Of a stretch of 64,000 bases of DNA, positions 13,982-50,657 are shown in pieces. The translations under genes were made by a program, and so were the position numbers. The stretch spans positions 2,302,501-2,366,500 of the forward strand of contig NZ_CP054394.1 in NCBI RefSeq assembly GCF_022539405.1. Direction: 5' to 3'. This DNA comes from Natranaerofaba carboxydovora. Lineage in GTDB: Bacteria > Bacillota > Natranaerobiia > Natranaerobiales > Natranaerofabaceae. The notes below the pieces were generated by a model. It searched no databases and was not told the DNA's origin. It was given only the letters and a program-made list of their open reading frames with translations. Every line of letters begins with the position of its first letter. The stretch's first letter is position 1.

Positions 13982-14306
13982 TTCACTCAAATAAAATTTT
14001 AAGGTTTTCAAAGAAGGAATTAGGCATAAATTATAGAATAGATGAAGTTAAGTTTTTACAATTTTCAGAATTTTTAGTTAATGATAGCCAGCAAGCGAGT
14101 AAATTTTCTTAGAACCTCAAGTAAAGTAAAACTATAAACAAATAAAATTCTTGAAAGGAGGGGTTGACCTTCTAGTTATATAAAAATCATCCGTGTTAGT
14201 TAGATTGTTAAATGGTGTTAAACGGCGGTTGTTAAATTATTTAAAGAGACGTGCTATGAATAGTCAAGTATAAATTTTTCAAAGATTTTTCAAAGATCAC
14301 TGTTGT
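13982..14306. other. Intergenic flank left of the IS110 element
   Basis: About 325 nt without a convincing gene. It holds an orphan ribosome-site-like GAAAGGAGGGG at about 14152-14162 with no ORF behind it, two tandem copies of TTTTTCAAAGA near 14276-14298, and a 16-nt segment (14252-14267) that is an inverted near-copy of 15819-15834 on the other side of the IS. The orphan site could be the remnant of a leader separated from its gene by the insertion; that is inference. Confidence 0.4.
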
Positions 14307-14333
14307 TCTTTGACAACCACATAAGGATTTTGG

Positions 14334-15554
14334 CTAAGAATTATTATCTGGAGACCACTTGTAGTTACTTTGATAAGGGCGATTGTTTTTCCACAAAGAG
14401 AAAATCATATGTACTAATTTTCGAGCCACAGCACCAGTTGCAACATTAGAATGCTTACCTTCTTGTTTCTTTTTTTCATAGAACTCTTTAAGTTCAGGAT
14501 TAAACCGCCTAGCTGATACAGCTGCCATCCACAAGCTATGCCTTAAAACAGGGGACCCTCTTTTGGACATTTTGTTTTTAGAACCTTCAAACTCTCCAGA
14601 AGCGTACACACTAGCATCAATACCAGCAAAAGCTACAAGGGCTTTGGCATTTTTGAATCTGTGGATATCCCCAACTTCACCAATTATGGCAGCAGCAAGG
14701 GTAGGTCCAATACCAGGCACAGTTTCTAACACATGGCGATACTCAGTATCTTCAGAAGGACGCATCTCTTCCATGACCTGATCTATGGCTTCTTCAATAG
14801 TGTTTATCTGGTCTTCAACAAACTCAATTTGCTCCATAAGAAGCCTAAGCTCTAAAGCATAAGCATCAGCGGCCAGATTTATCCCAAAGGTTCCCTTGGC
14901 TAGATCTTTAACCTGCTGGGCTTTATCACTGCCAAACCTTCCCCTTGAATGTTTCTTTAAGAACTCTGTTAACTCTGAAAGATCCACATCAGCTAGTTCT
15001 TCAGGGGAAGAAAATTCTTGTAAAAGCTTTTTAGAACTGTTGATAAACACACCAGAAAAACACTCAGGGTATTCTGGGAAAACTCTGTCTAAGATAGCTA
15101 GTACCTTGTTTTTCAAATCGCCAACACTTCTAACAAGATCAAAGCGGTGTCTGGATAGAGTTTGAAGTTTCATAACAGTTTCAGATGCAAGCTCAGACTG
15201 CGGCAGTCGCCCGAAACGGACCATATCAGCTAAGATAAAAGCATCTTTTAGATCTGTTTTGGTCTTTCTGATATAGAAGTTTCTGATGGCATGAGATTGG
15301 ATAGGATTAATCACATGAACCTCATAACCCAATTCTGTTAAATGATAGTAAAGAGAAAGCCAGTAGTGGCCTGTAGCTTCAAGGCAAAATTTGCAGTTGT
15401 CAGTTGTAATTCCTAAGCGTTCAAAGTTACTAAGAAGTTTATCTACACCCTTTTTTCTATTATGAATATTAATACTAAGAACTGAATTACCTTCAGCATC
15501 AATGATGCAAACTTCATGCTTATGTTTTGCAATATCAATACCGCCAAAAAACAT
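14334..15554 (-). CDS. IS110-family transposase (DEDD recombinase)
   Basis: A 406-residue recombinase. The N-terminal RuvC-like DEDD domain shows GGIDIAKHKHEV (first Asp), CLEATGHYW (Glu) and KTDLKDAFILADM (Asp pair). The C-terminal Transposase_20 domain shows VPGIGPTLAAAIIGEVGD and YASGEFEGSKNKMSKRGSP, which holds the conserved serine of the family. The start is the ATG at 15554, preceded by AAAGAGAGG; the longer frame upstream has no ribosome site and runs through the structured 5' region. The frame is intact, so the element may be active. Confidence 0.93.
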   Translation of the reverse strand: MFFGGIDIAKHKHEVCIIDAEGNSVLSINIHNRKKGVDKLLSNFERLGITTDNCKFCLEATGHYWLSLYYHLTELGYEVHVINPIQSHAIRNFYIRKTKTDLKDAFILADMVRFGRLPQSELASETVMKLQTLSRHRFDLVRSVGDLKNKVLAILDRVFPEYPECFSGVFINSSKKLLQEFSSPEELADVDLSELTEFLKKHSRGRFGSDKAQQVKDLAKGTFGINLAADAYALELRLLMEQIEFVEDQINTIEEAIDQVMEEMRPSEDTEYRHVLETVPGIGPTLAAAIIGEVGDIHRFKNAKALVAFAGIDASVYASGEFEGSKNKMSKRGSPVLRHSLWMAAVSARRFNPELKEFYEKKKQEGKHSNVATGAVARKLVHMIFSLWKNNRPYQSNYKWSPDNNS

Positions 15555-15777
15555 TACAAAGATACCTCTCTTTAACAAAATATTGACAGGGCCAGTCCCC
15601 AGCACCTCACAAGTCCCAACCTTGCTCGTTACTCGAGGCATACAGCAAGCTATATCCACAACGTGCTCATTCGAGAAATCTTATGAGGGCGGGGCTCCAC
15701 TCTCTATACCAGGACAGCTTAACTTCCCATGGAGGTGATCGAAGCCCCTGCCTCATTAGAGATATTAGCTACTTAAG
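15555..15777 (-). ncRNA. Candidate bridge RNA region of the IS110 element
   Basis: The 223-nt non-coding 5' region of the transposase folds convincingly on the minus strand. A 9-bp stem with one bulged A pairs 15743-15752 with 15688-15696 (GGCAGGGGCT with AGCCCCGCC). It encloses an asymmetric internal loop (15733-15742 and 15697-15708) and an inner 6-bp stem (15725-15732 with 15709-15714). A stem, large internal loop and capped stem is the design of the loops in IS110 bridge RNAs. Further hairpins lie nearer the gene (CTCAT/ATGAG; CTTGC/GCAAG). The fold was drawn by hand. Confidence 0.6.
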
Positions 15778-15872
15778 GCCAAAATCCCTATGTGGTTGTC
15801 AAAGATCAGTGAATTCTTTTGACTATCAATAGCATGTCGGGAACTAACTATATTGTACAAGGAGGCTAAAAA

Positions 15873-16232
15873 ATGGCTGATGAAGAAAAAAAGAATGAAT
15901 CTTATGACGATACTGATGTGTATTTTGAACATGAAGTTAACTTGTTAAGCCCCAAGACCCCCTTTATGAAAGATTTCTTAAAACTCAGTTTACCTTTAGT
16001 AATTATCTATGTATTTGTCCTCATAGCAGGACCTGCAGTAATTTTTTTAACTGCGGAAACGGCTGATGGGATGGGACCTTTAACAGAAGCTACAATTCTA
16101 AGCTTTCCTGTTCACTGGTTTATAGTTGCCTTTATCTGTCCTGGCGTTCCATTTATACTCTCTATTATTTTTGCAATACAGCAGGATAAATTATTTGAAA
16201 AATACGCTGATAGTGAGTCTGAAAGCGCATAA
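15873..16232 (+). CDS. DUF4212-type small subunit of a solute:sodium symporter
   Basis: A 119-residue protein with two membrane segments (about residues 42-62 and 80-103), an acidic N-terminal tail and a short cytosolic C-terminus. Size, the segment FPVHWFIVAFICPGVPFILSI, and position directly before an SSS-family transporter match the DUF4212 small subunit that pairs with VC_2705-type symporters. A good ribosome site (AAGGAGG) precedes the ATG. The IS110 element lies just upstream, so the original promoter may have been displaced. Confidence 0.85.
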   Translation: MADEEKKNESYDDTDVYFEHEVNLLSPKTPFMKDFLKLSLPLVIIYVFVLIAGPAVIFLTAETADGMGPLTEATILSFPVHWFIVAFICPGVPFILSIIFAIQQDKLFEKYADSESESA

Positions 16233-50333: not shown

Positions 50334-50365
50334 CCATCATCCTTAGGGTAACTATCGCCCTCACC

Positions 50366-50575
50366 AAAAAGGCAGGTCTTCTGGCTTCGATTCTCCCTAC
50401 TTCCCCGCCTTCCCAAGCACCTTTGTTCTCCTTTACCTTAACTCTCCCTAGCATAACTTTAATTAGGAGTAGATGCCAGTGGCATGATGGGGGTTCGTCC
50501 TCGATTACAGCGGCGGGACCGCGCCGGTTAAAAGCCCGGCTTCCCTATTATCCCCAAGAGAGGGGACCTTTTTGG
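50366..50575 (-). ncRNA. Cobalamin riboswitch
   Basis: The minus-strand transcript contains GCCACTGGCAT (B12-box region), paired GC-rich helices around AAGCCGGGCTTTTAACCGGC and GGTCCCGCCGC, and ends with the 3' signature GAAGCCAGAAGACCTGCC. Size (about 200 nt) and order match the class. A terminator and cobT follow at once. Confidence 0.93.
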
Positions 50576-50657
50576 ATATTAAATTGTTGATTCGCTAGTG
50601 TAAGAATCAATTGTAATATTTTCAAATGTATTTTCACTGTTACATTTTCACTATTTT

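Follow-up and report, generated by a model that had tools for sequence, protein, structure and literature searches.

An insertion element of the IS110 group lies at positions 14249-15859 of the window (the whole 64,000-nucleotide stretch of Natranaerofaba carboxydovora DNA that was analysed), on the minus strand, as are all features below unless a strand is given. Its 5′ non-coding end almost certainly encodes a bridge RNA, predicted in the same orientation as the recombinase gene and upstream of it. Comparison of the putative guide segments with insertion sites across related elements shows that the guide would steer the element into the ribosome-binding site before genes, usually leaving that site intact. 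A bridge RNA in this end had been proposed in a first-pass annotation, and the proposal is borne out by covariation in the stems and by matches of the loops to the flanks and to the element ends. The wider reading, about as likely to be right as wrong, is that a Bacillota-wide IS110 clade carries a guide that copies anti-Shine-Dalgarno logic, lands in ribosome-binding sites and has an end that rebuilds AAGGAGG, so that the interrupted genes, including essential ones such as rpmA (L27), would stay translatable; the long deep inverted repeat of one subclade would be a further recognition or regulatory part, hitherto undescribed.

The element sits between two CT cores, 15860-15861 at the left end and 14247-14248 at the right end, which were placed by comparing the ends across homologs and with an empty site. 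A second copy in the same genome (G000:C1:1898149-1899766) is 100% identical over 1,618 bp, and the flanks beyond it differ; the block common to both copies, 14245-15862, includes 1-2 bases of shared target per end. Comparison with homologs indicates that the element ends are conserved. The element encodes a 406-residue DEDD recombinase (14334-15554) that matches PF01548 (5.7e-46) and PF02371 (1.5e-28), scores above the cutoff of the NCBIfam model "IS110 family RNA-guided transposase" (NF033542) and aligns to the IS621 and ISCro4 structures. Residues D7, E59, D101, D104 and S319-G320 align with the catalytic residues of IS621, from whose recombinase the protein is clearly diverged (phmmer 2.2e-26, in two stretches). 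With its recombinase domains, aligned catalytic residues and identical second copy, the element is real and looks intact, as had been annotated. Its non-coding ends measure ~305 nt on the 5′ side and ~85 nt on the 3′ side, so the only sizeable non-coding part is indeed the one upstream of the recombinase; a long 5′ and a short 3′ non-coding end is the layout of the IS110 group (PMC11208160), and the core of IS621 is CT as well (PMC11208158). A search of G001 and G002 for an empty ortholog of the element's own site found none; the core and the scarless target were observed at the empty site of a homologous insertion in G038, at a locus other than that of the window.

The structured part of the predicted RNA (15587-15764) comprises a target domain, a donor domain and a 3′ hairpin. 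In the consensus of 26 homologous ends, a closing stem, a large internal loop and a capped stem are followed by a second domain with an internal loop and a capped hairpin, placing two internal loops in a conserved RNA upstream of the recombinase, as in the IS110 group. The closing stem of the target loop (GGGGCUUC/GGAGCCCC, helix 2 of the alignment fold) is formed by 15741-15748 (5′ strand) and 15691-15698 (3′ strand), and the capped stem within this loop by 15710-15728 (helix 3); the stem, large asymmetric loop and capped stem described in the first-pass annotation thus recur in the homolog consensus. The donor-domain stem (helix 4) pairs 15680-15689 with 15605-15613, and a hairpin at 15637-15657 (helix 7) caps the donor loop. 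Double changes that keep the pair occur at 15 of 52 pairs compared with 6.9 in shuffled alignments, a count that was not attained in any of 500 shuffles. The covariation score (0.197 vs 0.151, 0/500 shuffles) is far above that of slid controls, and pairing is destroyed when the partner strand is slid. These double changes cluster in the stem of the donor domain (7 of 9 pairs) and in its hairpin (4 pairs). The target-loop stem is nearly invariant, and its support consequently comes mainly from conservation. An outer helix proposed by RNAalifold (columns 17-28 with 222-234) lacks double changes and was excluded from the support, which is drawn from ~26 to 30 homologous ends. The folding energy (MFE) of the single sequence is no better than that of dinucleotide shuffles (z = -0.76), and therefore the evidence for the RNA is covariation in homologs and not stability. 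At the 3′ end of the RNA is a terminator-like hairpin (15587-15601), a feature that is weak alone (2 found vs 1.2 expected). Expression of the RNA, its binding by the recombinase and its role in recombination are predictions from these comparisons.

The first loop is complementary to the target on both strands, as expected of the IS110 group: its 5′ side reads as the left flank and its 3′ side as the reverse complement of the right flank. The left target guide AUCACCUCCAU (15729-15739) matches the Shine-Dalgarno complement in the left flank, while the right target guide GUAUAGAGAG (15700-15709) is complementary to the right flank CT(CTATA). Across 23 elements, 5.57 of 8 positions of the left guide agree with the element's own flank, compared with 4.57 of 8 when guides are permuted; for the right guide, compared in 18 elements, the figures are 3.55 of 5 and 1.69 of 5. 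Neither observed value was reached in 20,000 permutations, and a shift of the register abolishes the match. The left-guide result extends to 30 wider-clade elements (40-46% protein identity, from Lachnospiraceae, Enterococcus, clostridial prophages and others), with 6.23 matches against 5.06 (0/20,000) for guides and flanks transcribed by hand. These permutation tests are inflated to some degree by shared ancestry, and the members with switched targets are distinct elements. The match is clearest in three members that do not sit at Shine-Dalgarno sites and whose guides have switched together with the flanks: L014 (AGTCGCCT, 8/8, and CGGAT, 5/5), L184 (ACAAG, 5/5) and L242 (TCGCT, 5/5). The left guide of the window element is itself imperfect, with 6/8 and 4/8 matches for the two copies and CA instead of CT at the core position, and its right guide matches at 4/5 positions for each copy. 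Two loops named in the first-pass annotation, 15733-15742 and 15697-15708, overlap the left and right target guides, respectively; they are consequently the two sides of one target loop and not two separate loops. Identity of the left guide GATCACCTCC with the universal tail of 16S rRNA is not used as support: the guide has only two other exact matches in the genome, neither of which scored as rRNA. Those two matches (L301 and L302, at G000:C1:1970928 and 1975551) are near-identical sites containing GGATCACCTCCTTTTG that lie ~4.6 kb apart.

The second loop is complementary to the element ends. The left donor guide GAGCACGUUG (15659-15668) resembles the right end AGCACGT, a match conserved across homologs, and the right donor guide GUAACGAGCAAGG (15620-15632) pairs discontiguously with the left end, where G-U-(x)-A and CAAGG of the RNA face TAC and CCTTG. 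Discontiguous pairing of the right donor has been described for IS621 (PMC11208160). The corresponding donor sequences are ATAGCACGT at the right end of the element (left donor, 14249-14257) and TGTACAATATAG at its left end (right donor, 15848-15859); both lie in conserved ends and have the flanks, ATA and TAT respectively, that are found in the IS110 group. In homologs, variants of the left end listed from the table are matched by compensating changes in the RNA (CTCG/CGAGG, CTTA/UAAGG, CTAG/UUAGG with one wobble, and TAT/AUcA); the uncompensated exceptions are L025, which looks decayed, and L238. The donor-binding loop (15620-15668) falls within what had been annotated as further hairpins, and its donor role is added here. 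Both checks proposed with that annotation thus turned out positive, namely the covariation in the stems and the pairing of loops with the element ends and the target.

These matches also bear on a different account of the RNA, in which it would serve as a regulatory leader in the 5′ untranslated part of the recombinase mRNA (an attenuator or antisense target), with loops that have no guiding role. Its position directly upstream of the recombinase and the terminator-like hairpin at its end are what such a leader would display; however, a leader has no reason to carry loops that match the element's own genomic flanks in an own-specific and register-specific manner, or to compensate changes in the element ends within the donor loop, and this account is very improbable. 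The guide function of the bridge RNA is further consistent with the arrangement of promoter elements. When the right and left ends are joined at the core, a -35 box in the right end (TTGACT, 14262-14267), which would be used only across the circle junction, and a -10 box in the left end (TACAAT, 15852-15857) form TTGACT-17-TACAAT in the window element. The -35 box TTGACT, the 17-nt spacing and a TA-type -10 box occur in 16 of 17 elements checked; in the remaining one, L238, TATAAT is found at 17 nt by eye and the script chose another hexamer. In the linear element, no sigma-70-like promoter was found, compared with 3.8 expected, and an internal promoter starting from TTGACA in the left deep repeat was rejected, as a consistent -10 box is missing downstream of it and the promoter scan was negative. 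A promoter rebuilt in this way is a hallmark of IS110 elements, and we infer from the junction sequences that it would be active in the circle.

The identity of the target follows from the guide. The segment ACCUCC of the left guide is the complement of a ribosome-binding site, and the common guide of the relatives, CCUCC(U/A)U, likewise reads as a Shine-Dalgarno complement. Although the first-pass annotation had noted that the loops, if matched to the flanks, would define a target rule, and the guides do match the flanks, the Shine-Dalgarno rule itself was unforeseen. In the window, the Shine-Dalgarno sequence AAGGAGG of the interrupted gene (15859-15865, plus strand) is half element end and half target: it is rebuilt because the element end contributes ACAAG and the target contributes GAGG, and the same arrangement is seen at homologous insertions. 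The target gene itself is an open reading frame of 119 aa (15873-16232, plus strand) located ahead of a gene for a VC_2705-type sodium/solute symporter (TIGR03648, 2.3e-135); after insertion, the gene might be transcribed from an outward promoter or by reading through the element. At the second copy of the window element, GGAGG is present and no ORF starts within 23 nt. At 53 of 72 distinct insertion sites in this clade, an ORF with 40 or more codons, or one running off the contig, starts 3-23 nt past the left end; the corresponding share is 21% for random positions within these loci, 43% for other CCTCCTT sites and 34% for other CTCCTT sites. Genes directly downstream of insertions include those for EF-Tu (G038), ribosomal protein L27 (L168), V-type ATPase subunit K, GalU, type III pantothenate kinase and PurD, some of these sites being contig ends or short copies; G038 has a second EF-Tu copy besides the gene at the insertion. 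Three genomes of another genus have an empty tuf site, and its sequence is what results, precisely at AAGGAGG, when the G038 flanks are joined, with one AG core and no scar.

It is conceivable that the Shine-Dalgarno association is a by-product, in that hosts simply tolerate insertions close to gene starts and the guide match is ancestral. Intergenic insertions are generally better tolerated, and the CCTCC guide is common to most members by descent, both of which would fit; yet the association with gene starts exceeds that of random positions and also that of other CCTCCTT sites, and members whose guides differ are found at different sites that match those guides, making this explanation unlikely. 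Targeting by the guide is accordingly preferred. Selection for this soft landing, in which the ribosome-binding site is rebuilt, may have produced the rule. Insertions before translation genes (tuf, rpmA) suggest that the host is harmed less when the element ends restore the ribosome-binding site.

The proposed mechanism is as follows. By sequence comparison, the left and right target guides of the first loop would recognize the insertion site on either side of the CT core, and the donor guides of the second loop would recognize the element's own ends. Based on the work on IS621, excision would yield a circle in which the joined ends form the promoter that transcribes the RNA, and a complex of recombinase and RNA would recombine this circle with the target, the CT core being the point of joining. 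With the Shine-Dalgarno sequence of a gene as target, which in element orientation reads CCTC-CT-A/T-rich (AAGGAGG on the opposite strand), the element would land divergently, a few bases before the start codon, where the left end ACAAG would join GAGG to rebuild AAGGAGG. Such a scheme would mean that an entire clade of RNA-guided recombinases follows a natural target rule that is explained at the level of the guide; as the guide is complementary to the Shine-Dalgarno sequence, one guide would have very many targets, most of them gene starts. Members in which guide and target have switched together would represent natural reprogramming events and could help to predict the targets of other IS110 elements.

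A precedent is found in IS900, which inserts between the Shine-Dalgarno sequence and the start codon. This IS110-family element of mycobacteria is described as targeting translation-initiation signals (Doran et al. 1997, cited in PMC8141618). The window element resembles IS900 in this class of target, and given this precedent Shine-Dalgarno or translation-initiation targeting by the IS110 family is not new; in the part of the literature searched, IS900 was the sole lead and no report linked Shine-Dalgarno targeting to a guide RNA or to this clade. Similar to IS621 (Durrant et al. 2024, PMC11208160; structures PMC11208158), the window element has the RNA in its left end upstream of a DEDD recombinase, a first loop for the target and a second for the donor, a CT core, discontiguous right-donor pairing, a promoter rebuilt at the circle junction and donors flanked by ATA and TAT. 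In contrast to IS621, which targets REP elements, it targets Shine-Dalgarno sequences, and it has a longer leader before the first domain and deep inverted repeats of 26-31 bp. The seekRNA of ISEc21 (IS110 type; Siddiquee et al. 2024, PMC11187229) likewise derives from an upstream non-coding region, with target matches on both strands and a junction promoter, whereas the linear target of ISEc21 lies inside IS3-family transposase genes. A DEDD recombinase with a guide RNA and inverted repeats near the ends are shared with the IS1111 group; however, the RNA of that group is in the right end and that of the window element in the left, and its STIR repeats measure 7-17 bp and lie a few bp from the ends, compared with 26-31 bp and 35-60 bp inside for the window clade. 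Judged by sequence, the predicted RNA is a bridge RNA of the IS110 group in every feature tested, and differs in target class, long leader and deep repeats.

The deep inverted repeats of the window element are located at 15778-15808 (left copy) and 14304-14334 (right copy, plus strand); they are identical at 29 of 31 positions and are kept in close relatives. Within this close clade, the repeats are 26-31 bp long and lie 35-60 bp inside each end, and the two repeats of one element are more alike than those of other elements (mean score 34.0 vs 27.6); ten wider-clade members checked lack them. As a guess, the repeat could be a binding site or take part in RNA pairing. The limit of 15777 given in the first-pass annotation is the inner edge of the left repeat and must be moved to the true element end at 15859; the annotated region covers the inner two thirds of the long non-coding end. 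The repeats were also considered as the ends of the IS110 element, with the outer 54 and 60 bp being a pre-existing MITE-like repeat that served as insertion target. Both the presence of a 31-bp inverted repeat and the occurrence in G001 and G002 of 88-98 nt units made of the outer ends alone would agree with this idea, which was nonetheless dropped as highly unlikely: the outer ends accompany the element in every genome (G038 has 7 full copies and 0 short ones), they are involved in the donor-guide matches, the CT core and the junction promoter alike, the empty tuf site is devoid of outer sequence, and the short units can be read as deletion derivatives whose ends have stayed intact.

With the element ends at the CT cores, the short units, which contain only the two element ends and neither guide RNA nor deep repeat, look like MITE-like deletion derivatives with intact ends that would be mobilised in trans. 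They comprise L021 (G002), L085 (G001:C8:7660-7754), L096 (G001:C22:14101-14191), L108 (G001:C11) and L121 (G001:C2:88891 region), and four of the five adjoin a Shine-Dalgarno-like flank. The only full-length copy seen in G001 contains stop codons. Three further elements (L022, L023 and L238), 385-586 bp long, are derivatives with internal deletions in which both ends and portions of the guide RNA are retained. Elsewhere in the window, a cobalamin riboswitch is present at 50354-50586 on the minus strand (RF00174, 101.6 bits).
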